Source of the DNA: a virus
Virus record (IMG/VR): IMGVR_UViG_3300006117_000698
Location: 1 to 29,952 of that record
DNA: 29,952 nucleotides
Strand: one strand, 5' to 3'
In this document: positions 203 to 20,481 of the stretch, piece by piece
Layout: every line of letters starts with the position of its first letter
Numbering within the stretch: position 1 is the first letter of the stretch
Made by a program: the position numbers and the translations under genes
The notes under the pieces: generated by a model
Databases searched by the model: none
The model's input: the letters and a program-made list of their open reading frames with translations, nothing else
What the model was told of the DNA's origin: nothing

Positions 203-208
203 TATGTA

Positions 209-549: not shown

Positions 550-555
550 GAAACT

Positions 556-1029: not shown

Positions 1030-1049
1030 GACCATCCTTGAGTTAGTGT

Positions 1050-1125
1050 TGGTAGAAGTAGTTGGATTCGAACCAACGGTCTCCGCCGTATGAAGGCGTT
1101 GCATTAGCCGCTATGCTATACTTCT
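1050..1125 (-). tRNA. tRNA-Met(CAU), probably elongator
   Basis: Acceptor AGAAGTA pairs with TACTTCT, the anticodon loop TTCATAC gives CAU, T arm GTTGG/CCAAC with loop TTCGAAT, discriminator A and encoded CCA. The fully paired acceptor argues against an initiator tRNA. A separate Ile2-type CAU tRNA lies at 20405. Confidence 0.88.
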
Positions 1126-1127
1126 AG

Positions 1128-1201
1128 TGGAGCGGGTAGCGAGAATCGAACTCGCGACTCTAGCTTGGAAGGCTAGGGTAATACCATTTTACGATACCCG
1201 C
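1128..1201 (-). tRNA. tRNA-Gly(UCC)
   Basis: Acceptor GCGGGTA pairs with TACCCGC. Anticodon stem CTAGC/GCTAG with loop CTTCCAA (UCC), T stem GCGAG/CTCGC, discriminator U and encoded CCA. Confidence 0.93.
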
Positions 1202-1202
1202 T

Positions 1203-1289
1203 TGGTGGGATGCCTAGGTAACGATCCTAGCCAATCGCAGTGATACGGGATTTACAGTCCCGGCCCCGTCCTTAGAGGTATATCATCCC
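1203..1289 (-). tRNA. tRNA-Tyr(GUA), class II, unusual T loop
   Basis: Anticodon stem CGGGA/TCCCG closes the loop CTGTAAA (GUA). A long variable arm follows, as expected for tRNA-Tyr. Discriminator A and CCA are encoded. The T stem CTAGG/CCTAG is perfect but its loop is ATCGTTA, again A54/U58 in place of U54/A58, as in the tRNA-Ile gene at 129. The last acceptor pair is a mismatch. Confidence 0.85.
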
Positions 1290-1301
1290 ATATTTAAAAA
1301 T

Positions 1302-1376
1302 TGGTGGGCTAGTGTGGAATCGAACCACCTAACTCGCTATGTCGTAGCGGGCTGAAACCATTTCAGCGTCAAGCCT
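1302..1376 (-). tRNA. tRNA of uncertain identity (possible anticodon GAC)
   Basis: D stem GCTG/CAGC, T loop TTCGATT, discriminator A and encoded CCA are clear, and the acceptor AGGCTTG/CTAGCCC pairs except at its first position. The anticodon stem CGCT/AGCG leaves a loop ACGACAT, which lacks U33 and would read GAC (Val). It may be a decayed or specialised tRNA; the isotype should not be trusted. Confidence 0.6.
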
Positions 1377-1383
1377 AAAAACT

Positions 1384-1458
1384 TGGTGGAGACCGAGGAA
1401 ATCGAATCCTTCTAGACAGCATCCTTGCAAGGGATACCCGTAGCCCACTACTGCCCCC
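1384..1458 (-). tRNA. tRNA-Ala(UGC)
   Basis: Anticodon stem TATCC/GGATG with loop CTTGCAA (UGC), T loop TTCGATT, discriminator A and encoded CCA. The acceptor GGGGGCA/GGTCTCC is held by several G-U pairs with one mismatch at the base, so the stem is weak. Confidence 0.75.
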
Positions 1459-1466
1459 AAATTGTT

Positions 1467-1542
1467 TGGCTCCATCTGTTGGATTCGAACCAACCTTCTC
1501 CGGTTAACAGCCGGGCATACTCGCCAAGAATATTAAGATGGA
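1467..1542 (-). tRNA. tRNA-Asn(GUU)
   Basis: Acceptor TCCATCT pairs with AGATGGA. Anticodon stem CCGG/CCGG with loop CTGTTAA (GUU), T stem GTTGG/CCAAC with loop TTCGAAT, discriminator G and encoded CCA. It is the first gene of the array in the direction of transcription. Confidence 0.9.
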
Positions 1543-2798: not shown

Positions 2799-3593
2799 CT
2801 ATAATTTTAAAAATGGCAGGAATATCCTGCAGGCATCAAATTCCCACCAACGACCGCTGATGCCTGAACCAAAATCATAATTGCCCGGACAGTGATGATG
2901 ATTGTTATGCCACCCTTCACCCCAGGTCAGATATCCGGTCAAGATGTTGTTGTAGGTTCTGTCTTGAGTTTCAAAATTTCTGTAGCCAATGCCGCTGCGT
3001 ATGTGTCCCACTGTGTTGGTAATGTTGGCATGAAAAAATGATATGCCGGTTACTAGAAAAAATCCAGTGAATGCCAGGCGCCAATCCACTACACACACTA
3101 TCAAAGGAACCAGCCACATGATCTTCAATTGGTTTCTATGAAACCATACATGATTGGGTTTTCGTAAAAGATCAACCGCGTACCTGATGTTGATCATCAT
3201 GTTGTTCTGGGTGATTTGAAAATACCAGCCAACAAAAGCATGAAAAAATCCGTGTGCTACCGGGCTGTGGATGTCTCTTTTGGTATCACAGTGTGAATGA
3301 TGGTATCCTCTATGCAGTGCGGTCCACATGATGCTGGACCCCTGACCCGAAAACACAGCAAAGAATAATATGATGTTTTCTTTCCAGGCTGGCAGGTGAT
3401 GTGTTCTATGACTGAACACTCTATGATACCCTACTTCGGCACCTAGTCCGCATACCAACATCCACATAATCAGAGTGGCACAAAGATAATGCGCAGCAAT
3501 TATACCTATGGCCAACATGTAGACAGCACTTCCGGCCAACACAAGCACAGGTATCCAAACAAACCATATGGCTTTGGAAATATTTTTAAACAT
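2799..3593 (-). CDS. membrane fatty acid desaturase
   Basis: 264 aa. All three histidine boxes of the acyl-lipid/acyl-CoA delta-9 desaturase family are present: His57 to His62, His94 with His98-His99, and a C-terminal His-Asn-Asn-His-His at about 229-233. Hydrophobic segments at roughly 10-50, 72-92 and 165-190 give the expected membrane layout. The enzyme would put a double bond into host acyl chains using a di-iron centre and an electron donor not encoded here. Its start overlaps the end of the upstream acyltransferase gene by 8 nt, so the two are co-translated. A possible role is changing membrane fluidity or lipid A/phospholipid acyl chains during infection. Function class is firm; the substrate is not. 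Confidence 0.88.
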   Translation of the reverse strand: MFKNISKAIWFVWIPVLVLAGSAVYMLAIGIIAAHYLCATLIMWMLVCGLGAEVGYHRVFSHRTHHLPAWKENIILFFAVFSGQGSSIMWTALHRGYHHSHCDTKRDIHSPVAHGFFHAFVGWYFQITQNNMMINIRYAVDLLRKPNHVWFHRNQLKIMWLVPLIVCVVDWRLAFTGFFLVTGISFFHANITNTVGHIRSGIGYRNFETQDRTYNNILTGYLTWGEGWHNNHHHCPGNYDFGSGISGRWWEFDACRIFLPFLKL

Positions 3594-4278
3594 TTGATAT
3601 CTCCTGTTGTTGATAAATTCGTCGAGTGTTGCCGCCGACTAGGCTGACAATTTCGTTGTCTTCAACATCGCGTAGCACTGTGAGTCCCGGATGTATTACT
3701 GCATTTTTTCCAATTCGCATGTTGCCACCGATCTTCATGAGTCGTACACCAACACCCACATAGGTATTTTCTCCAATTTCTGTATTTCCTCCAACAAAGC
3801 ATCCGTGTTGAATTGTTACATTTTTGCCTAGCCTGGACCCATGAGAAATTTGAGTGGCTCCATGTATAAAACAGTGATCTCCAAACTCTGTATTTGAGTG
3901 TATGTCCACAAAGTGTGCTACACAAACACCCTGCCCAAACTTTGCTGTTTTACTGATACGACTTACCTGGCTCACCATCAAATTTGCACAGGTCAATTGG
4001 TGTTGATCTACTAAATCTATAAACTTGATTCTTTTTCCTACATTGCGTGCTACCGAGGGTACCGGATTAACACCTATAAAAAAATCATACTGTTGTTTCA
4101 ATTGTTCAAAATCACAGGCAGATTCAGATGCTATAATCGGTAACCCATACATATCTGCGGTGTTGCCGTAATAGTCACTATCAATTATACCACGAACTTC
4201 AAATCCGCCTATTTCAAAATGTTCTATTAGATCTGGAAGGATTTGACCGCATCCAAGAAAAATTAATGGTTTTGACAT
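3586..4278 (-). CDS. NeuD/PglD-type sugar O/N-acyltransferase
   Basis: 230 aa from the ATG at 4278. The N-terminal third starts with a hydrophobic strand and Gly-Cys-Gly, like the nucleotide-sugar-binding domain of NeuD/PglD proteins. The C-terminal half, from about residue 105, is a run of hexapeptide repeats (Ile/Val-Gly-x-x-x patterns) forming a left-handed beta helix with His residues near the expected acceptor site. These enzymes acetylate bacillosamine- or sialic acid-type sugars. It precedes the desaturase in one transcript. A longer frame using TTG at 4293 is possible, but the ATG fits family length better. The nearby glycosyltransferase genes support surface-glycan modification; the acceptor is unknown. 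Confidence 0.8.
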   Translation of the reverse strand: MSKPLIFLGCGQILPDLIEHFEIGGFEVRGIIDSDYYGNTADMYGLPIIASESACDFEQLKQQYDFFIGVNPVPSVARNVGKRIKFIDLVDQHQLTCANLMVSQVSRISKTAKFGQGVCVAHFVDIHSNTEFGDHCFIHGATQISHGSRLGKNVTIQHGCFVGGNTEIGENTYVGVGVRLMKIGGNMRIGKNAVIHPGLTVLRDVEDNEIVSLVGGNTRRIYQQQEISNV

Positions 4279-4432
4279 TTGTTGTTCTTTCAAAATTAAA
4301 ATTTAATTGACCAAAGATATGATATATTACACCAGATTCTAGACTAGTGCCAGGTCGATATATTCAACGTAAACTATTTACTTTTATGATAGTCACAATA
4401 ATTCAAGTTCTACTGCTGATTGATACTCGAGC

Positions 4433-5335
4433 TCAATGCTGATAAAGATTGTGCCATCGGGCTGTGTCGGCTCGTACCTTGGAATCGAGCGCACGATAGT
4501 CTGTTGCCCAGGGCAACAGCATCTGATGCATCTGATAAAATTCGCGTGCTTCCGCAGAATCAAATATCTTGGTCATTTTTTTGTACCAATGGTCTCGTAT
4601 ATCGCTAGCGGTCCCGGGTGGCAGGTACATGGCATAAAAACCAGTATAATCAAAATCCTGGCCTAGTTTTTTTAGACTGGGTATTTTGACAGCATCGTTG
4701 TTGTTATGGTATTCTTCAGTCAAGGCCAGGGGCACAACATTGTTGCTCACAATTTGTTCATACACACTGGCGTAGGTCACTAATGCTATGTCTAGGGTGT
4801 TGCTGAGAAGATTCTGTACCACAGGAGTATCACCATTGTAGGGCACATAGGTCACATCCATGCGACCGAGAATCGCCTTGGCAATTGCGGTGTTAGTAGC
4901 ACTGGAACTGCCCGCTGCGATTGGTCGAGAACGAGCCTGTTGTTCCAGCTGTGCCCAGGATGTGATTCCGCTTTTTTTACTGGCCACTACCGCATAAACA
5001 AGTTCGGCAGTATACATCATGGGTGTCAACGAGTCCACTGTGGTTCTCAGCTCTGGATTTTCCAATGGTTTGAATACCATCGGTCCGCTTCCAGTCAACA
5101 ACAACACAGTGCCATCGGCTGGAGATCTGGCGAATTCTTTGACAGCCATTTGGCCACCGGCCGAAGGCATATTTAACACCATCACAGTATCGCCTTGACT
5201 GTTCAATTGTTGTTGCACGAACCTGGCCACAAGGTCCCCAGCGCCTCCGGCCGGGTACGACACCATGATGCGCAAGGACTCAGCCGAGCAGGTGACCGAT
5301 AAAAAAATTGACATCAGTAAAATTATCTTTTTCAT
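4433..5335 (-). CDS. TctC/Bug-family periplasmic binding protein
   Basis: 300 aa. A signal peptide covers about residues 1-18 (Lys-Lys, hydrophobic core, Cys-Ser-Ala). The body matches the Bug family of tripartite tricarboxylate transporter receptors: Tyr-Pro-Ala-Gly-Gly-x-x-Asp near 27-34, Gly-Gly near 60, and the Pro-Tyr-Asn-Gly-Asp motif near 165-169. Such proteins bind carboxylates in the periplasm and hand them to TctAB. No TctA or TctB partner is in the window, so it would work with a host transporter, block one, or have another use. The family is greatly expanded in Betaproteobacteria, which hints at the host. An AATAAATA core lies 36 nt upstream. Confidence 0.88.
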   Translation of the reverse strand: MKKIILLMSIFLSVTCSAESLRIMVSYPAGGAGDLVARFVQQQLNSQGDTVMVLNMPSAGGQMAVKEFARSPADGTVLLLTGSGPMVFKPLENPELRTTVDSLTPMMYTAELVYAVVASKKSGITSWAQLEQQARSRPIAAGSSSATNTAIAKAILGRMDVTYVPYNGDTPVVQNLLSNTLDIALVTYASVYEQIVSNNVVPLALTEEYHNNNDAVKIPSLKKLGQDFDYTGFYAMYLPPGTASDIRDHWYKKMTKIFDSAEAREFYQMHQMLLPWATDYRALDSKVRADTARWHNLYQH

Positions 5336-9664: not shown

Positions 9665-10141
9665 ATGCACAACATCAACAAACTACTGATATTGCTGGTT
9701 TTGGTCAGCGATGCCGTCGCGGCGCCGTTGCCAGATTTCACATTCAAAAGCCCCAGTTTCAACGGTTCGGGCTATGGTACATATCAGCTGACCATAGAAA
9801 ACGAACAGTATACTAGACAACAGGCTGTGCTAAGTGCGCTACAATCAGCACAACAACAGGCGATAGCCACAGCGGCCAGTAATCCCATCAACCAATTTTT
9901 GACCAATTTGGAATCAAGAATCTACGCACAGATCAGTCAAAACTTGGCCACTGCCATGTTTGCCAACAACAACTGTAGCGCAGGACAACCCTGCGGCGGA
10001 ACCATGAATTTCCAAGGCAATACCATACGCTGGAGCAAAGATCCAACCAATCCCAATCAGATACTGCTACAGGTAACTGACAATGTGGGCAACATAACCA
10101 CTATAACTGTGCCCTTAGGCAGTTTTACAATGACCAACTGA
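9665..10141 (+). CDS. csgF: curli assembly factor CsgF
   Basis: 158 aa starting at ATG 9665 behind CAGGAG. A signal peptide covers about residues 1-20 (Asp-Ala-Val-Ala-Ala). The mature N-terminus has Phe-Thr-Phe-Lys-Ser-Pro-Ser-Phe-Asn-Gly, the CsgF segment that inserts into the CsgG channel. It is followed by Asn-Pro-Ile-x-x-Phe and a helical stretch, then a C-terminal sheet ending in Val-Thr-Asp-x-x-x-Gly-x-x-Thr-Thr-Ile, as in CsgF. It is longer than E. coli CsgF (138 aa), with an insert holding Cys-Ser-Ala-Gly-Gln-Pro-Cys that may form a disulphide. CsgF caps the pore and couples curlin export to nucleation at the cell surface. It lies one base before csgG. Confidence 0.85.
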   Translation: MHNINKLLILLVLVSDAVAAPLPDFTFKSPSFNGSGYGTYQLTIENEQYTRQQAVLSALQSAQQQAIATAASNPINQFLTNLESRIYAQISQNLATAMFANNNCSAGQPCGGTMNFQGNTIRWSKDPTNPNQILLQVTDNVGNITTITVPLGSFTMTN

Positions 10142-10142
10142 C

Positions 10143-11318
10143 ATGAAAATACTATTATCCTTGGTGCTTGCGGCTATATTATCTGGTTGTGCTACCACGC
10201 AGAAAATGGGTGTTGAGCACAAGCCTGAACTGGTGCCAACCAAACTACAACGAGAATTTGATTCTGTGCCTTTGCCGGCTGGCCCCAAGCTCAGCGTGGC
10301 TGTGTATCAGTTTACCGACAAAACTGGACAACGTAAACCCACTCCAGGTATTGCCAGCTTCAGTACCGCGGTCACACAAGGTGCTGATGTGTTCTTGATC
10401 AAGGCCTTACAGGATGTGGGACACGGCCAATGGTTTGATGTGGTCGAACGCAACAACCTAGACGCCTTGACCAAAGAACGCTTGATCATCAAACAGATGC
10501 GCGAAGCCTACGAAGGCAAAGAAGCCAAACCTCTCATGCCCATGCTGTTTGCTGGCATCATATTCGAAGGCGGTATCATTGGTTATGACAGCAGTGTAGA
10601 ATCGGGTGGCACAGGATATAACTTCTTGGGCATAGGTCCTAGTACACAATACAGTAAAGATGTGGTGACCATAAGCCTCAGGGCCATAGCAGTCAACACT
10701 GGCAAGATAGTGGCTGCGGTCACAGTAACCAAGATCATCTACAGTACTGCGGACAGTTTTGCTGTGTTAAAAAGCATCGAACCCGGTGGCAACATTGTAA
10801 GCAAGGTGTTTGATGGCACCACCGGAGCTGTCAGTGCCACAGCCGGCATATTCCAATTTGAAACTGGATTGACCATAAATGAACCCGGTACCTTGGCAGT
10901 GAAAACAGCAGTGGAAGCCGCAGTGGTCGAAATCATACGCGAAGGTGAGCGCAAAGGAGTATGGGATTATCGCAAACCTGAACAACCACGAGTGCAGATC
11001 ACGCCGCCGGCTACTGTGGCGGAAACAGTCCCAGCGGCTGAGCCAACACGAGCTGTGGAAGTTGCAGAACCAAAAAAAGAAAAAATTGAGATTGCCAAGT
11101 TGGACAAAATGTATTTTGTAAAAAATACTCGAGTGTACACAACAAAATCCAATCTCGATGGGCCTGTGTATGGCCCGTATGTGGTAGTTTTGGCCAACCA
11201 AGTGGCAACAGTGACCAAAACGCAATTCAAAGATGTGGTACAAATACAAACCGATTCAGGAGTCAAGGGATTTGTAAAACAAGATAGATTGAAAAATCTA
11301 CAGACAGCGAACGATTAG
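10143..11318 (+). CDS. csgG: CsgG curlin export lipoprotein with C-terminal SH3-like domain
   Basis: 391 aa. A lipoprotein signal ends Leu-Ser-Gly-Cys with the lipid Cys at residue 16. The CsgG core spans about 25-275: Val-Ala-Val-Tyr-x-Phe-Thr-Asp-x-Thr-Gly-Gln-Arg-Lys-Pro, Val-Thr-Gln-Gly, and Trp-Phe-x-Val-Val-Glu-Arg-x-Asn-Leu are diagnostic. CsgG forms the nine-subunit outer-membrane pore that secretes curlins without ATP. E. coli CsgG is 277 aa; here a Pro/Ala/Glu/Lys-rich linker (about 278-322) and an SH3-like domain (323-388) are added. SH3-like domains of this kind often bind peptidoglycan, so the tail may anchor the pore to the wall; this is inference. It is transcribed directly after csgF and followed by a curlin gene. 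Confidence 0.93.
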   Translation: MKILLSLVLAAILSGCATTQKMGVEHKPELVPTKLQREFDSVPLPAGPKLSVAVYQFTDKTGQRKPTPGIASFSTAVTQGADVFLIKALQDVGHGQWFDVVERNNLDALTKERLIIKQMREAYEGKEAKPLMPMLFAGIIFEGGIIGYDSSVESGGTGYNFLGIGPSTQYSKDVVTISLRAIAVNTGKIVAAVTVTKIIYSTADSFAVLKSIEPGGNIVSKVFDGTTGAVSATAGIFQFETGLTINEPGTLAVKTAVEAAVVEIIREGERKGVWDYRKPEQPRVQITPPATVAETVPAAEPTRAVEVAEPKKEKIEIAKLDKMYFVKNTRVYTTKSNLDGPVYGPYVVVLANQVATVTKTQFKDVVQIQTDSGVKGFVKQDRLKNLQTAND

Positions 11319-11357
11319 GAGTCGCAAAAAGGCCAAAAGAGCCAAAAGGAAAACGCA

Positions 11358-12290
11358 ATGAAAACAAGACTAGCCAAACTAATAATAACAATGCTAGCGA
11401 TAACGGGTATAGCAGGAGCAGCCGATAACAGCATCTACATAGACCAAACCGGTGACAATTCCACGATCAATATAACCCAATCAGGTTATGGTAACGTGGT
11501 ACGAGGTATACAACCCCTGCCCAATGCCAACGATAACACTGTGAATGCCCGAATATACGGCAGCAACAATCAATTGGCCATTACCCAGACTGGTAGCAAC
11601 AATCGACTGGATCTGGGCGTACAGACCATGACCGGCAACGGCGGAGCAGGCAACCCCACTGTGACTTATACCGTGACAGGTGACAATGCCAAAGCCAAAA
11701 TTGACAGCAACAACGAAGGTACCGGCATCAGTGAAAGCAATTCGATCGCAGTAAATCAGACCGGTAACAATTCTGGATTGAATGCTCGGGTCCTGGGCGG
11801 TGAAAACTCCTTGAGTATAAACACCGGAGGCGGCGACGGCAATGGGGTCAATTCATTTGTCAACGGTGGTAATAACTCCCAAAATATCAGTTTGTTGGGT
11901 GGTGGCAACAACGTGGCCACAGTATTACAAGGTGTAGCCAGTCCAGTCAATAACAGCAGTGTGGGCATTAACTTGGTTGGTGCCAGCAACGTGTTCAGCA
12001 TAACACAAGATGGTGGCACTGCGGGCAATCAGGTCACTGTGGGCGGATACACAGGTGGGTCAGCCATGACCGGCAGTGGTAATTCAATCACTGTGTCACA
12101 ATACGGCAGCGCCGACAACACGGCCAATTTGGGTATTACCGGCAGTAACAATACCATAACAGCCAATCAAGCTGCTGGTGCTGCTTCCAACAATGTGCTC
12201 AATCTCAAAATGAATGGTAGTGGCAACACTGTGGGCGTTTCACAAGGCACAGGCACAGCCCCGCCACCTTCTACCGTTGGTCTGCGTTGA
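11358..12290 (+). CDS. curlin-repeat amyloid subunit (CsgA/CsgB-like), long
   Basis: 310 aa with a signal peptide ending about residue 21 (Ala-Gly-Ala-Ala). The whole mature protein is a run of curlin-type repeats with the Ile/Val-x-Gln-x-Gly-x-x-Asn core; about eight recognisable Gln-x-Gly units are visible, some degenerate. Strand-turn-strand repeats of this sort stack into the amyloid core of curli. At 310 aa it is about twice the length of E. coli CsgA (151 aa). The Shine-Dalgarno is strong (AAAAGGAAAACGCA before ATG). The gene follows csgG by 39 nt, so it is the most likely export substrate. The protein is Asn- and Gly-rich and nearly lacks Cys and aromatic residues. CsgA or CsgB identity cannot be told apart. 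Confidence 0.85.
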   Translation: MKTRLAKLIITMLAITGIAGAADNSIYIDQTGDNSTINITQSGYGNVVRGIQPLPNANDNTVNARIYGSNNQLAITQTGSNNRLDLGVQTMTGNGGAGNPTVTYTVTGDNAKAKIDSNNEGTGISESNSIAVNQTGNNSGLNARVLGGENSLSINTGGGDGNGVNSFVNGGNNSQNISLLGGGNNVATVLQGVASPVNNSSVGINLVGASNVFSITQDGGTAGNQVTVGGYTGGSAMTGSGNSITVSQYGSADNTANLGITGSNNTITANQAAGAASNNVLNLKMNGSGNTVGVSQGTGTAPPPSTVGLR

Positions 12291-13393
12291 TGAAAATATT
12301 GTTGTTTCTCAGTTTGTGTTTCGTGTCAGTGAATCTCTGGGCTGGTATTGGTACTATAACCGAACAGGCCAACAATCCAGCATCGATACAAAGACAAAAG
12401 ACCACATTGTCTGGCACCAAAGGAACAGCAGTAGAAATGGAAGATGCTGTAAAAACCGGACAGGGCAAAGTGGGCATTACCTTTGCTGACGATACTAGAG
12501 TACAAGTGAACGAAAATAGCCGATTGGTCATTGACGACTTTGTGTATGATCCAAAAAAACCCACCGCAGGCAAACTGGCACTCAACATGGCGTCGGGCAC
12601 GGTGCGGTATGCGTCAGGGGCTATTGCTCATGACAATCCCAGCAAGGTTTCTATCAATACACCCACCGCCACTATCGCTGTTCGTGGAACTGATTTTACT
12701 ACCACTGTGGATGAACTGGGTTCTAGCACAGTGATATTGTTGCCCAGTTGTCCGGCTGGTTATGCTGATATAGAACGTGACTGCAAAATTGGCATAATTG
12801 ATGTGATCACTGATGCCGGACAAGTCACACTGGATCAGGCCTTTCAAGCCACAAGAGTGGACAGTCGTGGCACGCCACCAACTCGACCGGTCATTGTGCG
12901 ACTGACTGCTGACAGCATCAGCAATCTGTTGATCCTGAGTCCGCCGCCTGAGATTCGTCGAGCAGTATCGGACCAACGAGAAATGAATCGAGTCAATGCT
13001 CTTAGCCAGGATTTTCTCAAAGAAGCCGATCTCAGCAACGTGTTGACTGAACAACAACGAACCATATTTGCCAATAGGCTCAGCCAAAACTTTTTGGATC
13101 AGGACTTTTTACAAAATATTTTGACCTTGATCAACGAACAATTGGCGGCTGAACTCAATCTACTCAACAGCACCACGTCAGGACTGTTGCCAGACTATAA
13201 AGCACTGTCAGGGGTCAAGGTAGCTGTGGACGATTTGACTGTGACTCTAAGTCGTGATGACGGTAGCAACATGTCCAGCGCCACATTCAGCAAATACAGC
13301 AATGCCACACTGTATCAAACACAAGGTTCCATCACGATAAAAAATCGCGTCAACACCGGCGGTACCACGGTGGTAACTTTGAAGCAGAATTGA
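12290..13393 (+). CDS. secreted FecR-domain protein
   Basis: 367 aa. The start is the ATG at 12290, overlapping the curlin stop as TGATG. A signal peptide covers about residues 1-18 (Trp-Ala-Gly). A FecR domain lies at about 40-145: a strand with Gly-Lys-Val-Gly-Ile-Thr-Phe-Ala-Asp-Asp-Thr, then Leu-Val-Ile-Asp-Asp-Phe-x-Tyr, and the Val-Arg-Gly-Thr-Asp-Phe motif that marks this family. The C-terminal half is helical and ends in a beta-rich part. Here the FecR domain is not a membrane sigma regulator but a periplasmic or exported protein, as in bacterial FecR-CHASE2 cyclase gene groups. It sits between two curlin genes, so binding to fibres, exporter or cell wall is likely but unproven. Confidence 0.82.
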   Translation: MKILLFLSLCFVSVNLWAGIGTITEQANNPASIQRQKTTLSGTKGTAVEMEDAVKTGQGKVGITFADDTRVQVNENSRLVIDDFVYDPKKPTAGKLALNMASGTVRYASGAIAHDNPSKVSINTPTATIAVRGTDFTTTVDELGSSTVILLPSCPAGYADIERDCKIGIIDVITDAGQVTLDQAFQATRVDSRGTPPTRPVIVRLTADSISNLLILSPPPEIRRAVSDQREMNRVNALSQDFLKEADLSNVLTEQQRTIFANRLSQNFLDQDFLQNILTLINEQLAAELNLLNSTTSGLLPDYKALSGVKVAVDDLTVTLSRDDGSNMSSATFSKYSNATLYQTQGSITIKNRVNTGGTTVVTLKQN

Positions 13394-13394
13394 T

Positions 13395-14177
13395 ATGAAA
13401 CAGTTATTGTTACTGGTCATGCTGTTCTCCAGCGTTGTATCAGCTGATCCACAAACAGATTCGGCTCAGGCCAGATTGAACTATATCACAAACAACAGCA
13501 TCTATATAGATCAAGTTGGTGACTCAAACAACATCAGAATTCAACAAAACAGTGGTCAAGCCGGCATAGCTGGAGTGGGTGCCAACAGTATGCCCATACA
13601 AGGCGATGGCAATTACGTAAAGATAATCCAGGGCGACCCATTGGGGTCAGGACAGCACCTGGCAGAAGGTGCCGTCTATGGCAGTTATAACACTGTGATA
13701 GCCAAACAAGGTGTCGCCCTGGATGGGCAAACGTCTGGCCTAGATGCCGGCGGACACTATATCATGTTCACGGTAACCGGCACTGGCAATCAGATCTCCA
13801 GTGAACAGACCAATACCGGTTCAGCCAACATGAGCTATGTGGCCACCACAGTCAACGGCAACTATAACACACAGACCTTTAGTCAGACCGGCAACGGAGC
13901 CAAACAGATCACGGCCAACACACAGGGCAATCAAAACAGTCTCACTGCCACACAGACTGGGAGCCAACAGAATCTGGCAGTGAATTTTCTGGGCAACAAC
14001 AACAGTGCCAGCGTGTTACAAACCGGATCAGCCAATAATGCCAATATCAGCATAGTCAATGCTGGTGGCCCAGGATCGGTCAATCTTATTCAAACAGGTG
14101 GACAAAACTATTCGGTCAGTACTGTTTGTGTACAAGCAGGCGGTTGCGGACCTATAACTGTGCGCCAAGGCAATTGA
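13395..14177 (+). CDS. second curlin-repeat protein
   Basis: 260 aa with a signal peptide ending at about residue 17 (Val-Ser-Ala-Asp). Repeats with Ile-x-x-Gln-x-Gly-x-x-Asn cores run through the mature protein, e.g. Asp-Gln-Val-Gly-Asp near the start and Leu-Ile-Gln-Thr-Gly-Gly-Gln-Asn near the end. Two Cys close together in the last 15 residues could form a disulphide. It starts one base after the FecR gene. In bacterial operons CsgB is the nucleator and CsgA the major subunit; this shorter copy could be either. The two phage curlins are alike in repeat type but clearly differ in sequence, so they are not a recent duplication. Confidence 0.83.
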   Translation: MKQLLLLVMLFSSVVSADPQTDSAQARLNYITNNSIYIDQVGDSNNIRIQQNSGQAGIAGVGANSMPIQGDGNYVKIIQGDPLGSGQHLAEGAVYGSYNTVIAKQGVALDGQTSGLDAGGHYIMFTVTGTGNQISSEQTNTGSANMSYVATTVNGNYNTQTFSQTGNGAKQITANTQGNQNSLTATQTGSQQNLAVNFLGNNNSASVLQTGSANNANISIVNAGGPGSVNLIQTGGQNYSVSTVCVQAGGCGPITVRQGN

Positions 14178-14182
14178 TTCGA

Positions 14183-14190
14183 TATAAATA
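14183..14190 (+). promoter_or_regulatory. late promoter core TATAAATA
   Basis: An exact core inside GATAT-AA-ATATC, only 5 nt before the ATG at 14196. The layout matches the dyad at 7112 and predicts a nearly leaderless transcript for the outer-membrane protein gene. Confidence 0.65.
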
Positions 14191-14195
14191 TCCGT

Positions 14196-14861
14196 ATGAA
14201 AAAAATCTTTTTGGCTTTGATTGCCAGTTTTGCAGTACAGGCTGTGGCACATGATCTTGTGGTGAATCTTGGTGGCACTGTGGATCTTTCCAACACCACG
14301 ATCAACAGCGCAGTGTCTTATATCAACAAAGATCTGCGTGCAAGCCCGTACAGTCAGTACATAGATATTGATAACATATACAAATCCAGCGCCAGCAGTG
14401 GAGTCACACAAAACCTGTTTGATGTGTATGCCAAGGTCAATTACGAATTGGGCGACGGTAAAAATTATTTACAAACAGCTGGACGATATCAATATGACGA
14501 ATTTGGCACCTATAAAAATCTAGTGGTATTTGGTGTTGGTCATGGTTATCGTGTGTTGCGTACCGACACAGTCAAGCTCAGCGCCGAAACCAGCATAGCA
14601 CAGGCCGAAAGTGTTGAGTTGAACCAAACAGTGTTTCGTGAAAGTGTATGGGCCAGTTATCAAATCAACAACAAAAGCACCGTTTCAGAAAAGTACCTGA
14701 TTGAATCCGGTGGCACATTCCAATATCAAAAAAATGTCATGTCATTGAGATATCAATTGACCGATGATGTTGCTGTCAGCATCAGCAACACCTGGATCAA
14801 GGACAGCATCAACAACAAGTTGACCAATGCCACTGTGTTCGGGCTAGGAATGAAGTTCTAA
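14196..14861 (+). CDS. outer-membrane beta-barrel, DUF481-like
   Basis: 221 aa. A signal peptide ends at about residue 18 (Val-Ala-His). The mature protein is a series of amphipathic strands with Tyr, Phe and Gln at regular spacing, and it ends in Gly-Met-Lys-Phe: a terminal Phe is the assembly signal of outer-membrane barrels. Strand order and length fit the DUF481/YdiY 'salt-induced' outer-membrane family. It has its own late promoter core and closes the curli block. It may anchor fibres, act as a receptor mask against superinfection, or change outer-membrane permeability; no direct evidence separates these. Confidence 0.72.
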   Translation: MKKIFLALIASFAVQAVAHDLVVNLGGTVDLSNTTINSAVSYINKDLRASPYSQYIDIDNIYKSSASSGVTQNLFDVYAKVNYELGDGKNYLQTAGRYQYDEFGTYKNLVVFGVGHGYRVLRTDTVKLSAETSIAQAESVELNQTVFRESVWASYQINNKSTVSEKYLIESGGTFQYQKNVMSLRYQLTDDVAVSISNTWIKDSINNKLTNATVFGLGMKF

Positions 14862-14862: not shown

Positions 14863-15561
14863 ATGAGAGCCGAAGAATTCGTTACGGAAATAGAACGGGC
14901 AGAACCTGGTCTCTATACAGGTGGCAATAAAGAATTGCCTTTCACTGTGGATACAAAAAACATGCGTCGCATACGTCCCTTGCCAGGCGGAAGTAGATTT
15001 GGTTACTATATTGTTGATGGAACTGTGATCTATATCGTTGATCCCGAGCGACCCCAAGAACAACGTGAACGACCCAACGACATCATAGTGGCCAAGTTGC
15101 ACTTGGAACGGGCTGATGGGGGACTGGCCCAAGCAATCCCCAATCTGTACCAAGTAGAAACTATCACAGTAGACGAACGATATCGCAGACAAGGACTGGC
15201 ACGAAGTCTATACGGCATTGCCTTGACTGTATTGCGTTATACACTCATGGCCGGCAGCATACAGACCGCAGGTGGTAGGAGAATGTGGCAAATGTTGAAC
15301 ACCATACCCGGAGTGGAAATGTTTGGTGTGGTAGATGACTATATCATCGATGACAAAATTGCACAGGCCATCCTAAAACGCGGTGGCCGAGTTATACATC
15401 AGGCTCCCAGCGAAGAAATCCCAGGTGAAACAGATAGTGTGTACGCATTTCCTATACGTGCTGGCAGCAATGAGATAGTCAGCCAAATAAGAGGGTTGAG
15501 AGTCTATGACGACATGGACGATAATGGCGTATCTTTGATCGCTAAATGGACTGGTCGATGA
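14863..15561 (+). CDS. GNAT-fold acetyltransferase with capsid-targeting-like N-terminus
   Basis: 232 aa. The acetyl-CoA binding motif Val-Asp-Glu-Arg-Tyr-Arg-Arg-Gln-Gly-Leu-Ala-Arg is at about residues 103-114, preceded by the Val-Glu-Thr-Ile-Thr strand. The first eleven residues (Met-Arg-Ala-Glu-Glu-Phe-Val-Thr-Glu-Ile-Glu) look like the short capsid-targeting segments of T4 internal proteins, which the prohead protease cuts after a hydrophobic-x-Glu. If so, this enzyme is packaged in the head and injected with DNA. It starts one base after the outer-membrane gene and lies 6 nt before the CHASE2 gene. The substrate is unknown. Confidence 0.65.
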   Translation: MRAEEFVTEIERAEPGLYTGGNKELPFTVDTKNMRRIRPLPGGSRFGYYIVDGTVIYIVDPERPQEQRERPNDIIVAKLHLERADGGLAQAIPNLYQVETITVDERYRRQGLARSLYGIALTVLRYTLMAGSIQTAGGRRMWQMLNTIPGVEMFGVVDDYIIDDKIAQAILKRGGRVIHQAPSEEIPGETDSVYAFPIRAGSNEIVSQIRGLRVYDDMDDNGVSLIAKWTGR

Positions 15562-15567: not shown

Positions 15568-16569
15568 ATGAAAAAAATCCTACTTAGCCCCTGGACAGCC
15601 TTGGTCACATTGGCCATAGTTGTGGGCATAAGAACAGCAGATCCTGTGTTTGTTGAAAGTGTGCGACTAAGATACTTTGATACCTTGATCGCCAACAAGA
15701 CGCCCACAGTCAACAACATCTACACTGTCGACATCGACGAAGCCGCACTGGACCAACTCGGGCAATGGCCATTGCCGCGTGCGGAATATGCCAAAATCAT
15801 ACAAGATTTATATGCAAGACACGCAGGTCTAGTTGTGCTGGATGTGCTCATGCCGGAACCTGACCGTACTGGAGGCGACAATCGACTGGGACATGCACTG
15901 AAAAAATATCCGGTAGTGTTGCCAGATTTCCCTGCTGACCACAGCAAGAACATTGCACACCCGCCGGGCTCGGCCGTGATTGGCTCCAACAACCTGGACA
16001 TGATGATCACATATCCGGGCCTGATTGCCAATATTCCTGCCATAGAAAATTCAGCGGCTGGTGTGGGCATCGTGAACACCTTGCCAGAAATAGACGGAGT
16101 AAATCGTCGTGTGCCATTGGTGGTACAAGTTGACGGGCGGCTGTATCCCGGGCTGTCTCTGGAAGCTCTGCGTGTTGCCAGTGGCAACAGCACATTCCAG
16201 GTGCGAATGAACGAGCTGGGTGTGGAGAAACTGCGACTGCCGGGCGATATTGGAATTGTTGCCACAGACAACTTGGGACGCATCTGGATAGACTGGAGTC
16301 AACACAGTAAATCGGCAAAGTTGACCGATTTACCCCGAGATTTTGGTGGTGCAGTTGTGATAGTGGGACCCACGGCTGCTGGCATTGCCAATCCGGTACC
16401 AACCAGTATTGGTGCGGTGTGGCCACATGATCTACAGGCCCGAATCATGGCCACCATGATCAATCACGTGGTCATACAACGACCCGGCTGGGCCGATACG
16501 GCAGAAATTATACTAATAATAGTGCTTGGATTAGTGCTTGTATTCTTCGCTAACTGGCGTAAAAAGTAA
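15568..16569 (+). CDS. CHASE2 sensor half of a split adenylate cyclase
   Basis: 333 aa. A membrane segment at about residues 8-25 is followed by a periplasmic CHASE2 domain (about 30-300), with the hallmark Val-Asp-Ile-Asp-Glu-Ala-Ala-Leu-x-Gln-Leu-Gly-x-Trp-Pro-Leu-Pro-Arg run near 50-67. A second helix covers about 309-327, ending Asn-Trp-Arg-Lys-Lys and stop. In intact bacterial proteins the CHASE2 domain is followed by three helices and a class III cyclase. Here the frame stops after the first of these; the other two and the cyclase are encoded at 17503. The last 25 codons use TTA, CTT and CTA for Leu, unlike the CTG/TTG of the rest. The two proteins may assemble in the membrane. Confidence 0.85.
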   Translation: MKKILLSPWTALVTLAIVVGIRTADPVFVESVRLRYFDTLIANKTPTVNNIYTVDIDEAALDQLGQWPLPRAEYAKIIQDLYARHAGLVVLDVLMPEPDRTGGDNRLGHALKKYPVVLPDFPADHSKNIAHPPGSAVIGSNNLDMMITYPGLIANIPAIENSAAGVGIVNTLPEIDGVNRRVPLVVQVDGRLYPGLSLEALRVASGNSTFQVRMNELGVEKLRLPGDIGIVATDNLGRIWIDWSQHSKSAKLTDLPRDFGGAVVIVGPTAAGIANPVPTSIGAVWPHDLQARIMATMINHVVIQRPGWADTAEIILIIVLGLVLVFFANWRKK

Positions 16570-16575
16570 TAAATA
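16568..16575 (+). promoter_or_regulatory. late promoter core AATAAATA
   Basis: The core overlaps the CHASE2 stop and ends 5 nt before the ATG at 16581, so the inserted block has its own late promoter. A further AATAAATA occurs at 16824-16831, before the endonuclease gene. Confidence 0.5.
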
Positions 16576-16580
16576 TTATT

Positions 16581-16832
16581 ATGAAAACATTTCGCGATTA
16601 TATCAATCTAATAGAATCTGCTAATCAAAGTTTAGAAGAAAACTGGATCAATCACGATGCCCCGGAGATGTTAGCAAGGCACCTTGCTGAGTTGTATTAC
16701 AACGGAATCAGTCCTGCTGATGAGTTTAAAATGGCCGCACATATCTATCAACAAGTTATTAACGGCGAAATGTCGATTGAGCAACTCAAGCAACACATTG
16801 CCAGACTTGAAAAAGAAAAGCGTAATAAATAA
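16581..16832 (+). CDS. small helical protein with T4 internal-protein-like N-terminus
   Basis: 83 aa. The first twelve residues ([12 protein letters not shown]) closely resemble the capsid-targeting sequence of T4 internal head proteins (Met-Lys-Thr-Tyr-Gln-Glu-Phe-Ile), with Leu-Ile-Glu as a possible prohead-protease site. The remainder is helical and charged, ending in a Lys/Glu-rich coil. I know no family for it. It lies inside the split cyclase locus, just before the homing endonuclease, and shares that block's AT-rich codon use. It may be a passenger of the mobile block or a displaced native gene. Confidence 0.65.
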
Positions 16833-16894
16833 AAGTGCGAGTCGCGATGCTATCAACATCCACCCGCTCTATGATTGTAAAGGAATCACAGCAA

Positions 16895-17506
16895 ATGTAT
16901 TTACGCTATTATGTCTATGCCTACATAAGAAAGTCAGACCATACACCTTACTACATCGGTAAAGGTAAAGACGCAAGAGCTTGGTCTAAAGCTCATTCCG
17001 TCAAAGTCCCAAAAGATAAATCTAAAATAATTTTTATTGAAACTAAACTAACCGAAGTCGGTGCCTTGGCCATTGAGCGCCGATTAATACGTTGGTGGGG
17101 CCGTAAAGATCTAGGCACTGGTATATTACACAATAGAACAGATGGCGGCGAAGGAGCAACTGGCAGAGTATGGACAACAGAACAGCGTAAGAAAAATAGT
17201 CTATCACATACTGGTGTTGCTAAATCTGAAAATCATCGTATAAAATTAAAAGCCGCAAAGCAAGGCAAAAAACACAATCAATACGGCACCAGGCAATCCG
17301 AAGAATGCAAAGAAAAGAATAGACAAGCCCATCTCGGAGAGAATAATAGTTTTTACGGAAAAAAACACACAGATGAATCTAAACAAAAAATAAGAGATAA
17401 AATAACAGGTATAAAACGAGAAAAGTTGGTATGCCCACATTGCGGCATGGTATGTGCTAAAAATATATACGTCCAATATCACGGAGACAAATGTAAGCAC
17501 AAATGA
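16895..17506 (+). CDS. GIY-YIG homing endonuclease with NUMOD3-like repeats
   Basis: 203 aa from the ATG at 16895, with AAAGGA 10 nt upstream. The N-terminal catalytic domain has Tyr-Val-Tyr (6-8) and Tyr-Ile-Gly (20-22), with the Arg of the active site nearby. Residues about 105-170 hold NUMOD3-type DNA-binding repeats (Gly-Lys-Lys-His-x-x-Glu-x-Lys). A Cys2-His-Cys finger follows: Cys180, Cys183, His196, Cys200. Such enzymes cut a target allele and spread their own gene. Its stop overlaps the next start as ATGA, so translation of the cyclase half is coupled to it. The gene is AT-rich compared with most neighbours, which supports recent arrival. No group I intron structure was recognised around it. 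Confidence 0.88.
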
Positions 17507-18531
17507 ATAAACATTTATCCTATATTGTTCCAATCTTATTAGTTGTCTTACTCTACTTTGGTGGGCAATACGCTTACACGCATTATGCGTTCCTAATTGA
17601 TGTTACTATTCCTATCGTAGCAGTAGTTCTAGTAGGCCTACATATCAATATTGTTAGATTTATTACAGAGTTAAATCAAAAATTAGCAATCAAACGACAG
17701 TTCGGCAGTTATGTCAATCCCACCATTGTGGAACGCTTGCAGAAAAATCCTGAATTGATCAAACTCGGTGGCGAACGTCGAGAGCTCAGTATAGTCATGA
17801 CTGACCTGCGTGGGTTTACTGCGCTAGGCGAAAGTTTTGGCGACGATGTAGAAGGCCTGACCAAGATCATGAATGACTACATGACAGCGTTGAGTGTTCC
17901 TGTGTTGGCCAATGATGGTACACTGATCAAGTTCATTGGTGACGCCAGCCTACATGTACATGGTGCGCCATTGGATGATGACAAGCATGCCCAAACTGCT
18001 GTGCGCACTGCACTGGAAATGATCCGGGCCATTGAAGATTTCAATGTGGGCTTGATTGCCAGTGGGCGTCCTCCAGTGGGCATGGGTGCAGGTGTCAACA
18101 CCGGCGAGACCTTGATAGGCAATATCGGTGCCAAAACCAAATTTGGCTACGATGTGTTGGGAGATTCAGTAAGCACAGCAGCACGCCTGGAAGGACAAAC
18201 CAAGAGCTATGGTGTGCTGTTGATCATTGGTCCAAGAACAGCCGATCTGGTCAAAGATTCATTTGCAGTGATTAAACTGGATAACATCGCGGTCAAAGGC
18301 AAAACTGTTGGGCTGGATATCTATACCGTGGGCCAAACTGCGACCCACAAACATGAAGAATACATGAAAGAATATCTAAGTGGCAACTGGAATCGAGCAC
18401 TTGAGTGGGCTAGAGAATTGTGTACAGATCCAACCGTGGACATACAGGAATATTACAAAAAGATGATCGAGCGGATGGAACAAGGGGTACCAGACAACTG
18501 GAACGGCACCTATCATGCCACAAGCAAATGA
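17503..18531 (+). CDS. class III adenylate cyclase half of the split CHASE2 cyclase
   Basis: 342 aa. Two membrane helices (about 5-25 and 31-52) lead into a catalytic domain at about 90-275. Metal-binding Asp101 and Asp147, and the adenine-selecting pair Lys143 and Asp217, are present, so ATP is the expected substrate. The transition-state Arg228 is kept, but the Asn normally four residues before it is Ser224, which may lower activity. A helical C-terminal extension follows. The upstream half of the protein (CHASE2) ends at 16569. The first 65 codons use only TTA/CTA/CTT/CTC for Leu, then switch to TTG/CTG, as though the start arrived with the endonuclease. The product, cAMP, would alter host regulation. 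Confidence 0.87.
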
Positions 18532-18846
18532 TCAGTCGCTACCGCCGGCTGCTTCTTGATCTTGTACAGTGGCGTTGATGCGCTTTTCGGCTGATACTCG
18601 TTCATGTTCAATGCTTTTGCCACGAAGATGCAGAACCGTATTGACCTTTTGATTCAGTCGGATCAGGTCGTTGTCCAACATGCGTATACGGTCAATCAGT
18701 GCGATCAACACGGTGTTGGCATCTGATATGACCGGCTTGACTTCGGTAGTTGCCCACCGCCAGACATAGTGTATGACATAGCCCATGCCCACGGCCATGA
18801 TGATAGGGAATCCGTACTTGTTTACCAGTTCTACTAGGTTTCCCAT
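18532..18846 (-). CDS. small membrane protein with C-terminal coil, holin-like
   Basis: 104 aa from the ATG at 18846. One helix at about residues 12-32 (Gly-Phe-Pro-Ile-Ile-Met-Ala-Val-Gly-Met-Gly-Tyr) is followed by Trp-Arg-Trp and a long amphipathic coil with Arg, Asp and Glu. The Asn/Asp-Lys-Tyr-Gly-Phe-Pro start is typical of small YvrJ/holin-like phage proteins, and the gene at 19031 has the same plan, so they look like paralogues. The start overlaps the upstream stop as TGATG. Its stop directly abuts the stop of the convergent cyclase gene, together forming TGATCA. A role in lysis or as a membrane spanner is possible. Confidence 0.6.
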   Translation of the reverse strand: MGNLVELVNKYGFPIIMAVGMGYVIHYVWRWATTEVKPVISDANTVLIALIDRIRMLDNDLIRLNQKVNTVLHLRGKSIEHERVSAEKRINATVQDQEAAGGSD

Positions 18847-19031
18847 CACGTGTAGCCTCTTGTGAATCGTTCAACAGGATCAATCTTTTTGATCATCCGG
18901 ATCCCAGTGACCAAACAGGTTTCAAGACGGAATAGATCACCTTCTTTCCACCCCAATGCAACTGTGTCCAACTCGTTGTCCAATTTCAAATAATTGGGAT
19001 ATAGATCCCATTCATAATCGTAGTATTTCAT
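18846..19031 (-). CDS. 61-aa hypothetical protein
   Basis: 61 aa from the ATG at 19031 (Met-Lys-Tyr-Tyr-Asp-Tyr-Glu-Trp-Asp). Acidic, with many Tyr and Trp in the first third, and no membrane segment. Family not recognised. Both ends overlap neighbours by one base (TGATG), so it is translated with the two holin-like genes and probably works with them. Confidence 0.6.
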   Translation of the reverse strand: MKYYDYEWDLYPNYLKLDNELDTVALGWKEGDLFRLETCLVTGIRMIKKIDPVERFTRGYT

Positions 19032-19312
19032 CAGTCTCTGCGACAATCAGTTTTTCCGTCAGCTCTGGCAATTCTGTCAAGATCGGGTTTAAGACCGAGG
19101 GCAGAACTTACTAATGTATCCACTCTTAAGACTTCATGATTCATGGTCTTGACTCGGTTGTCCAAGGCCGTGATGATGCCGGCCATGCTCTTGATACTGC
19201 TGAGCACTCCGGCCAACAACAGTTTGATGGTCAAAAAAACAAAATATCCACCGGCCAATGCTGCTGCAACAGGAAAACCAAGATCGCCAATGATCTTGAG
19301 AACATCATTCAT
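19031..19312 (-). CDS. small membrane protein, paralogue of the 18532 gene
   Basis: 93 aa. It begins Met-Asn-Asp-Val-Leu-Lys-Ile-Ile-Gly-Asp-Leu-Gly-Phe-Pro and has one or two helices within residues 14-45, then a polar tail with an Asn-Arg-Val-Lys-Thr-Met-Asn segment like that of the 18532 protein. A very good Shine-Dalgarno (AAGGAG, 6 nt spacing) and an AATAAATA late core upstream make it the first gene of a three-gene unit. A holin or membrane adaptor role is inferred from size and layout. Confidence 0.62.
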   Translation of the reverse strand: MNDVLKIIGDLGFPVAAALAGGYFVFLTIKLLLAGVLSSIKSMAGIITALDNRVKTMNHEVLRVDTLVSSALGLKPDLDRIARADGKTDCRRD

Positions 19313-19355: not shown

Positions 19356-19382
19356 CACTATCAATCAAGACTTGATGCAAAT

Positions 19383-19408
19383 AAAAAAAAGGGCCCGAAG
19401 GCCCTTTT
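19383..19408 (-). terminator. rho-independent terminator with TTCG loop
   Basis: On the minus strand GGGCC-TTCG-GGCCC, extended by AAAA/TTTT pairs, is followed by a run of eight T. The C(UUCG)G tetraloop is very stable. It ends the small-gene transcript at 19450; on the plus strand the T tract is only four long. Confidence 0.85.
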
Positions 19409-19449
19409 GGTGGTTTCTGTTACGAGGTATTTCCTACCCTATGCAGTGA

Positions 19450-19569
19450 TTAAACTGCAAATGATGTGGCTCGTACTGTACGTGCAGAGAACTTGATGTT
19501 CTTGCCAGAAACAGCGACTTCGCCTGTATTTGCGTTTGCATTTACGAGTTTTGCTTGATTTACAGTCAT
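19450..19569 (-). CDS. 39-aa hypothetical protein
   Basis: A 39-codon frame rich in Ala, Val, Thr and Asn, with Lys-Phe-Ser-Ala-Arg-Thr-Val-Arg-Ala near the end and stop 42 nt before a strong terminator. It starts 3 nt after the stop of the 43-aa gene. The Shine-Dalgarno is weak. The regular codon use and the terminator support a real gene. No family is known to me. Confidence 0.5.
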   Translation of the reverse strand: MTVNQAKLVNANANTGEVAVSGKNIKFSARTVRATSFAV

Positions 19570-19572
19570 CGC

Positions 19573-19704
19573 CTACTGTGTTGCCTCTTTCGCTATCTCA
19601 CCATGTCGAAACCGGTCGGACCCACCTAATAGACCTACAACTAACCAGAACCAAAGATTTACTGCGGCTACAATACCCCAAAAATAAATCCAATGTTCAA
19701 ACAT
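19573..19704 (-). CDS. 43-aa single-helix membrane protein
   Basis: A 43-codon frame beginning Met-Phe-Glu-His-Trp-Ile-Tyr-Phe-Trp, with one Trp/Val/Leu-rich helix over about residues 5-28 and a charged tail. Gly-Gly-Ser-Asp-Arg follows the helix. GGGA lies 6 nt upstream of the ATG. It sits just past the tmRNA-like RNA and 3 nt before the 39-aa gene, so both may share a transcript. Small one-helix proteins of phages can act as lysis, antiholin or superinfection factors, but nothing here decides that. Confidence 0.5.
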   Translation of the reverse strand: MFEHWIYFWGIVAAVNLWFWLVVGLLGGSDRFRHGEIAKEATQ

Positions 19705-19715
19705 ACAAGTCCCTT

Positions 19716-19790
19716 AGGTGGATCCGGGGAGAATCGAACTCCCGTCCACAGTGCCTTTGCTACGAAGGAATTACAACAATACTTTGCTAC
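19716..19790 (-). ncRNA. tmRNA-like 3' tRNA domain (or degenerate tRNA)
   Basis: The minus strand ends with TGGACGGGAG, loop TTCGATT, CTCCC, then CGGATCC-A-CC: a perfect T arm and acceptor 3' strand whose lead-in TGGACGGG is typical of tmRNA 3' ends. No matching 5' acceptor (GGATCCG) lies within a tRNA's length, and the anticodon-like hairpin CCTT/AAGG has G at position 33. The last base of CCA is T. It could be the acceptor piece of a split tmRNA, a truncated tmRNA, or a tRNA relic. Confidence 0.4.
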
Positions 19791-19792
19791 TG

Positions 19793-20068
19793 CTAGACAG
19801 TTTGCACCACGATTGATAAAGGTGGTGGATCAAATGTGTTCATGAATGTGACCCAGGCCGCGGCTGCATCCTGGGTTTCCCAGATAATAACAGCACAATC
19901 GCTAAGTGGAAAAATTGGATCTAGGGTGGGTTGCAATGCAGGAATACTCAACGCCGGCCCCGTGCCCGTTGTTTGAGCCAACTGACAACTAGCCAGCTGA
20001 TTTTGCATAAAGTCCTCTTCGAGAGATGACAATTTCCTGCCCATGTTCATATTTGTGATAATAGTCAT
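19793..20068 (-). CDS. 91-aa hypothetical protein, paralogue of the 20078 gene
   Basis: 91 aa. It begins Met-Thr-Ile-Ile-Thr-Asn-Met-Asn-Met-Gly-Arg and has Ala-Val-Ile-Ile-Trp-Glu-Thr then Ala-Ala-Ala-Trp-Val-Thr-Phe and Pro-Pro-Pro near the end, with the same order as the next gene upstream. The strand-helix-strand plan with a Trp helix could be a small ferredoxin-like (ABM-type) fold. It follows its paralogue by 9 nt and ends just before the tmRNA-like RNA. Function unknown. Confidence 0.68.
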   Translation of the reverse strand: MTIITNMNMGRKLSSLEEDFMQNQLASCQLAQTTGTGPALSIPALQPTLDPIFPLSDCAVIIWETQDAAAAWVTFMNTFDPPPLSIVVQTV

Positions 20069-20398: not shown

Positions 20399-20406
20399 TA
20401 TTTATG
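20399..20406 (-). promoter_or_regulatory. late promoter core CATAAATA
   Basis: Starts within the CCA end of tRNA-Ile2 and reads toward the 20078 gene, so the tRNA 3' end doubles as promoter sequence. Confidence 0.45.
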
Positions 20407-20481
20407 GTGGGCCTCCCGTGATTCGAACACGGCACCCAACGATTATGAGTCGTTTGCTCTAACCTAATGAGCTAGAGGCCC
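20405..20481 (-). tRNA. tRNA-Ile2(CAU), lysidine type
   Basis: Acceptor GGGCCTC pairs with GAGGCCC, T stem CCGTG/CACGG, discriminator A and encoded CCA. The anticodon arm AACGA-CTCATAA-TCGTT matches the bacterial AUA-reading tRNA-Ile2, whose C34 is changed to lysidine by host TilS. It would help translate AUA codons. It stands apart from the main array. Confidence 0.88.

Follow-up and report, generated by a model that had tools for sequence, protein, structure and literature searches.

How and why would a phage carry the genes of a curli system? The question is raised by a stretch of viral DNA of 29,952 bases (hereafter the window), which is one whole IMG/VR virus record (IMGVR_UViG_3300006117_000698). 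An original prediction, made from the letters of the window alone, had placed in it a curli export and fibre module with genes for CsgF, CsgG, two curlin-repeat proteins, a FecR-domain protein and a beta-barrel. All six were found at the coordinates given, and the module is of a published kind, here with several unreported parts. We put at about even the chance that it constitutes a type VIII (curli) secretion unit that lacks CsgE, modifies the surface of the infected cell and is coupled to an envelope-sensing cyclase.

Phage Origin of the Window

That a phage carries a curli export-and-fibre module was borne out by the whole viral record, a second assembly and cultured phages alike. The second assembly, the IMG/VR contig G001 (41 kb), matches 26 kb of the window (20 kb at 99.985% and 6 kb at 99.4%). 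T4 capsid, sheath and terminase genes were searched for in ten to eighteen related records, most of which are fragments without structural genes. Matches came only from module-bearing relatives: G003 and G006 carry terminase, and G005 carries terminase together with T4-type capsid and sheath genes, so phage genes do accompany the module. Neither a bacterial chromosome nor a chimeric assembly is supported by these data. A misassembly joining bacterial curli genes to phage genes, in favour of which we found no point, is hardly credible, since G001 repeats the 26 kb, some contigs that carry the module also bear terminase or capsid genes, and cultured phages have it too.

The closest named relatives of the window csgG and FecR proteins are those of two cultured phages, HTVC008M and Melnitz. 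T4-like marks had been claimed on both sides of the module; this held for a T4 RNase H-type exonuclease, an NAD synthetase and a UDP-glucose dehydrogenase, all of which have best or clear matches in HTVC008M, but not for structural genes. No head, tail or terminase genes were recognised in the window, with the exception of a weakly named virion structural family at 25223–25708.

A phage curli module had been put forward as a strong novelty, yet such modules were already reported in 2020–2022 (PMC7029224, PMC9004378, PMC9599517). csgF and csgG were described in HTVC008M and related pelagimyophages (PMC7029224), and curli genes in podo- and myo-pelagiphages, together with viral curli gene expression in sea water (PMC9599517). 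The Melnitz paper describes csgGF only and calls csgA and csgB missing (PMC9004378); unlike the paper, the GenBank record of Melnitz gives two proteins with curlin repeats and one FecR protein (L004, 9812–12606).

Gene Content and Order of the Module

The end of the module had been set at 14861, which proved too short: the module runs on to about 19,312. As can be seen in Table 1, the added stretch contains a GNAT-like gene, a CHASE2 gene, an open reading frame (ORF) of 83 residues, a NUMOD3/GIY-YIG endonuclease gene, a class III cyclase domain and a convergent pair of membrane-protein genes.

Table 1. Features of the curli module in the window (E, expectation value).
Feature	Position	Strand	Evidence
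csgF homologue, signal peptide by inspection	9665–10141 (frame open from 9554)	+	PF10614, E 2.9e-11, above cut-off; phrog_35372, E 1e-49
CsgG, whole gene	10143–11318	+	PF03783, E 6.5e-42
CsgG core, outer-membrane lipoprotein pore, lipobox LSGC	10143–10973	+	PF03783; alignment to E. coli CsgG 3x2r, E 1.7e-40
CsgG C-terminal extension: Pro/Lys/Glu-rich linker and SH3-like domain (about 11103–11297)	10974–11318	+	AlphaFold; matches of relatives
Curlin-like subunit 1, signal peptide by inspection	11358–12290	+	PF07012, E 0.0012, just below Pfam cut-off
FecR-domain protein, signal peptide by inspection, secreted or periplasmic	12287–13393	+	PF04773, E 2.9e-11; phrog_37870, E 1.1e-129
Curlin-like subunit 2	13395–14177	+	PF07012, E 0.017, sub-threshold; one profile family with subunit 1
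DUF481 outer-membrane beta-barrel	14196–14861	+	PF04338, E 1.4e-13
GNAT-like inserted gene	14863–15561	+	phrog_15502, E 7.4e-9
Cyclase, first half: signal anchor, CHASE2 sensor, first post-sensor membrane helix	15568–16569	+	PF05226, E 6.1e-41; phrog_35576, positions 1–339 of 681
Insert splitting the cyclase	16570–17502	+	83-residue ORF and endonuclease
83-residue ORF in the insert	16581–16832	+	Reading frame
GIY-YIG/NUMOD3 homing endonuclease	16835–17506	+	NUMOD3, E 5.2e-12; phrog_314, E 3.5e-14; GIY-YIG by inspection
Cyclase, second half: two membrane helices, class III cyclase domain, C-terminal domain	17503–18531	+	PF00211, E 2e-18; phrog_35576, positions 344–681
One-helix membrane protein, type B	18532–18849	-	phrog_18771, E 2.4e-30; aligned with paralogue
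One-helix membrane protein, type A	19031–19312	-	phrog_18771, E 1.8e-29

We collected 74 IMG/VR loci, built family profiles and mapped the genes, and the counts refer to loci with enough sequence to be testable. csgF adjoins csgG in all 71 such loci, and a curlin gene stands directly after csgG in all 58. FecR is present in 49 of 49 and the second curlin in 34 of 35, and wherever at least 9.5 kb follow downstream a CHASE2-cyclase was found. Barring very few exceptions, the order csgF-csgG-curlin-FecR-curlin-cyclase is kept in the window, HTVC008M, Melnitz and the IMG/VR loci. A search of related phage genomes had been proposed as a check, and it recovered the module in the HTVC008M and Melnitz groups as well as in about 70 further IMG/VR loci.

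Genes 014–019 of HTVC008M have the order of the window, and the two genomes are further alike in a small membrane gene pair and in the three metabolic and nuclease genes named above. HTVC008M differs in its one-gene cyclase, in a CsgG of 280 residues without the SH3-like tail and in having neither a DUF481 nor a GNAT-like gene. Melnitz carries the same six genes in order (99–104), its cyclase has the identical unusual VSTAAR motif, and it differs from the window by an intact cyclase and a CsgG of 278 residues. With E. coli csgBAC/csgDEFG the window has the CsgG pore and CsgF homologues in common, whereas a CsgE match is lacking and FecR and a cyclase are added.

The genes for DUF481, the GNAT-like protein, the 83-residue ORF and the endonuclease occur in the window and its twin L005 only, and the DUF481 and GNAT-like genes, being confined to this phage, were set aside as parts of the module. 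What follows the second curlin varies: in this slot L013 and L017 hold a different, larger secreted protein (664–668 residues). No CsgE was found in the window, in 17 related virus records or in two bacterial genomes, a search that was not aimed at CsgC or CsgD by profile; the earlier remark that csgE is not seen therefore stands for the window and these virus records. CsgE has been described as non-essential for the curli phenotype (PMC7029224).

Late promoter cores had also been proposed to flank the block. The core TATAAATA occurs 3 times against 0.84 expected, a count that was reached in 9 of 100 shuffles and is thus not above chance, and the copy at 14183–14190 lies too near the DUF481 start codon (14196) to serve that gene.

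Pore, Curlin-like Subunits and FecR

The AlphaFold model of CsgG matches the structure 4uv2 with an E of 2.7e-18. Its tail of 114 extra residues includes a separate beta domain at residues 321–385, modelled with a predicted local distance difference test score (pLDDT) of 78–93. Relatives have the same tail, which in them matches SH3 families of bacteria (L043, E 5.8e-10; L048, 3.1e-7; L007, 6.8e-7); Pfam gave no match to the window tail. Cell-wall binding is frequent among SH3-like domains of this kind. Such a domain on CsgG appears to be new.

The two curlin-like proteins of the window align as one family with the HTVC008M and Melnitz genes annotated as curlin. They are rich in Asn, Gln and Gly, and their G-x-x-N / N-x-Q spacing exceeds that of shuffled sequences. 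Subunit 1 was modelled by AlphaFold with 23 strands and zero helix (pLDDT 76.7; predicted template-modelling score, pTM, 0.76), that is, as a predicted beta-solenoid.

No membrane anchor was seen in the FecR-domain protein and no sigma factor gene stands beside it. Since the protein has a signal peptide and no adjoining sigma factor, regulation of the classical iron-sigma (FecIR) type is unlikely. Outside curli operons, the profile built from phage FecR also picked up FecR genes that lie divergently beside three CHASE2-cyclases of bacteria (L189, L196 and L201). An operon of FecR and a CHASE2-kinase governs biofilm in Burkholderia (PMC5192318); in Sinorhizobium, the signal reaches CHASE2 cyclases by way of an outer-membrane barrel (PMC13001267), and the same regulon has a FecR-domain protein among its targets (PMC5498481). 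Because of these bacterial neighbours and precedents we infer, by analogy, that the phage FecR and CHASE2-cyclase may act as an envelope sensor pair.

A Sensor-Cyclase Gene in Two Pieces

Alignment with intact relatives places the break in the cyclase after the first of the membrane helices that follow the sensor and before the second, with zero residues lost. The GC content of the insert is 0.38, lower than the 0.51 and 0.45 of the cyclase halves. Self-splicing of an intron, which would allow the cyclase to be made as one chain, could account for the retention of all residues at the junction and for a homing endonuclease in the insert, as many introns hold one. We consider this quite improbable, since no Rfam intron family was matched in 16300–17800 even at the permissive threshold of E up to 1, the first half stops right at the junction and the second half has its own ATG, which overlaps the endonuclease stop codon; a group I or group II intron was rejected on these grounds. 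The cyclase is, instead, a gene in two pieces and, judged from its reading frames, probably a functional one, because both frames are open and conserved.

T4-like phages have genes split by homing endonucleases, such as the split ribonucleotide reductase. Here, likewise, a free-standing endonuclease insert leaves two frames for one enzyme; unlike in the T4-like examples, the split hits a membrane sensor-cyclase, between two membrane helices. A cyclase split by an endonuclease insert appears to be new.

In the catalytic domain, both metal-binding Asp residues, the substrate Lys/Asp and the Arg are present, and the transition-state Asn is replaced by Ser (GDSVSTAAR). Four motif classes were found among the cyclases, including TCLGDxVNLASR and SVIGDAVNLAAR, plus minor variants. 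The catalytic part of the window protein is mostly 77–100% identical to that of L007, with far lower identity in the sensor and tail; the sensor is closest to that of L043 (70%), whose catalytic half is just 43% identical. In the same way, the sensor halves of L007 and L013 are 82% identical, their catalytic halves 47%. These identities point to a catalytic cassette that has been swapped between phages, which appears to be new.

A gene of 94–133 residues upstream of csgF, a stand-alone relative of the C-terminal cyclase tail, was seen in L012 (9133–9483), L014 (9118–9468) and 16 other loci; it is absent in the window.

A Pair of Small Membrane Proteins Accompanies the Module

The convergent genes at the end of the module code for paralogous phrog_18771 proteins, which have roughly 83–115 residues and, by inspection, a single N-terminal membrane helix with a probable coiled coil behind it. 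Of 77 loci, 43 have the pair close to csgF or the cyclase; of the 18 with sufficient sequence on both sides, 15 do. In HTVC008M and relatives these genes stand ahead of csgF, in HTVC008M on the same strand, whereas the window pair lies downstream on the opposite strand. Among 50,697 phage records, phrog_18771 was found in only six, which are the records of HTVC008M and Melnitz; the same six hold the FecR protein and comprise all csgG phages bar one unannotated record of 1.5 kb. The family is absent from 80 bacterial csgG loci.

One or more "histidine kinase" genes were described ahead of csgF in the pelagiphage curli module (PMC9599517), and by position these are probably the phrog_18771 genes. 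A histidine-kinase identity has no profile support: 22 members of the family matched no kinase profile at E up to 1. Recurrent weak Pfam matches were to TM140 and YvrJ (4 of 22 members, best E 0.21). As a companion of the module the pair appears to be new, having been overlooked earlier.

Bacterial Relatives

Among bacteria, the best CsgG relatives are alphaproteobacterial, with up to 44% identity. In 3 of 80 bacterial loci, namely L097 and L098 from Caulobacteraceae metagenome-assembled genomes (MAGs) and L106 from Hyphomonas, csgF, csgG, curlin, FecR and CHASE2-cyclase genes form one run. These loci resemble the window in that run and differ in their bacterial flanks (genes named by inspection), in the lack of phrog_18771, in curlins that stand only before FecR and in an unsplit cyclase. 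FecR and cyclase genes had been stated not to occur in bacterial curli operons (PMC9599517); contrary to that statement, they do.

A tree of CsgG with bacterial relatives, which had been suggested as a check, was built together with one of the cyclase. In both trees the rare alphaproteobacterial operons join the phages, with support of 95 to 100, and stand apart from all other bacteria sampled except two short MAG contigs, L118 and L128, which are placed among phages and could themselves be of phage origin. In a quick CsgG tree the bacterial operons with FecR and cyclase are nested within the phages, although one common phage clade was not rejected (p-AU 0.12). The shared run and the trees suggest that the module was transferred as a unit, in one direction or the other. 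Operons that already hold FecR and a CHASE2-cyclase are thus the closest cellular relatives, which appears to be new.

Proposed Function and Alternatives

The gene content would fit the following course of events. Curlin-like subunits would be exported by the Sec system of the infected cell, CsgG would form a ring in the outer membrane, and CsgF would assist at the outer face. The SH3-like domains may sit on the periplasmic side, where they would anchor the pore to peptidoglycan or partly close it in place of CsgE. The two curlin-like proteins, predicted beta-solenoids, might be displayed as a fibre or coat. FecR and the CHASE2-cyclase would sense the envelope and raise a cyclic nucleotide inside the cell during secretion, with the separately made sensor and catalytic chains probably re-associating in the inner membrane. 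The likeliest benefit would be an altered surface of the infected cell that chiefly excludes competing phages and, secondarily, keeps new hosts nearby. Blocking of superinfection and trapping of hosts were both offered in the original prediction, and both ideas are already in print in the earlier papers on phage curli modules.

Several observations weigh against this proposal. The curlin repeats are weak, with Pfam scores of 19.2 and 15.5 bits against a cut-off of 20.7, and a Foldseek search with the subunit 1 model returned weak, unspecific matches (best E 0.013; CsgA 8c50, E 0.19). A role of the CsgG tail in holding or closing the pore was proposed because CsgE is missing in all records tested and is a guess; many related contigs share the tail and many other phage CsgG proteins do without it. 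The Ser in place of the transition-state Asn (VSTAAR) makes cyclase activity uncertain. A betaproteobacterial host, to which a transfer-messenger RNA (tmRNA) model fit and the presence of a TctC gene might point, was considered and is not established. Finally, clumping and signs of sibling capture were not seen with Melnitz (PMC9004378), and no experiment shows fibres.

What speaks for fibre secretion over a bare pore is conservation, since the fibre subunits are conserved as faithfully as the pore. This bears directly on a pinholin-like role in lysis timing, put forward for Melnitz csgGF (PMC9004378), in which CsgG/CsgF would be a pinholin-like or secretin-like lesion, possibly acting with the phrog_18771 pair, and the fibre genes would be secondary. 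The restriction of the one-helix pair to csgG phages and its faint resemblance to YvrJ agree with such a role; nevertheless, a bare pore needs neither the curlin-like subunits nor FecR, which are as conserved as the pore itself, and the pair gave no significant holin match, so that we regard a lysis pore as unlikely. Sibling capture, in which fibres would bind cells to one another and virions, once released, would find fresh hosts at once (PMC7029224, PMC9599517), has the same low probability in our estimate: the gene anatomy supports capture and coat equally, but Melnitz cultures did not clump. An uptake channel was likewise suggested (PMC7029224, PMC9599517), with an ungated CsgG pore admitting large nutrients or iron complexes to the periplasm and FecR as an iron regulator. 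The absence of the CsgE gate is in keeping with this, whereas the conserved fibre subunits would be left unexplained and the features of the FecR protein given above speak against FecIR control; we hold such a channel to be very unlikely.

The surface-modifying secretion unit that we favour could also be part of a signal-coupled device not known from bacteria. The phrog_18771 pair, FecR and the CHASE2-cyclase would then link the condition of the curli pore to events at the inner membrane, such as lysis timing or exclusion of a second phage, and phages would swap the cyclase cassette to match or evade the cyclic-nucleotide signalling of the host. We regard this extension as rather unlikely.

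Other Features of the Window

The TctC gene (4433–5335, minus strand; PF03401, E 9.6e-17) codes for a periplasmic solute-binding protein that has no match among the 50,697 phage records; the twin contig spans the same stretch. A two-piece (permuted) tmRNA gene lies at 19359–19808 (minus strand), and the best model in its Rfam clan is betaproteobacterial; Melnitz likewise has a tmRNA near its module. Seven transfer RNA (tRNA) genes surround an RNaseH-like gene at the left end (45–1542, minus strand), and an eighth is found at 20405–20481. Fatty-acid desaturase-like and hexapeptide-transferase genes (2799–4293, minus strand) may serve surface or lipid modification. A second homing endonuclease gene of low GC content (0.37) occupies 28751–29800 (minus strand) and adjoins a QueE-like gene.

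Significance

The range of phage curli modules goes far past the marine examples in print, and the modules include parts that had not been described: a phage-specific membrane pair, an SH3-like domain on CsgG and a sensor-cyclase that is swapped between phages and even split. The rare alphaproteobacterial FecR-cyclase operons provide a concrete bacterial relative of the module, and its origin and function can be tested in Melnitz and HTVC008M.

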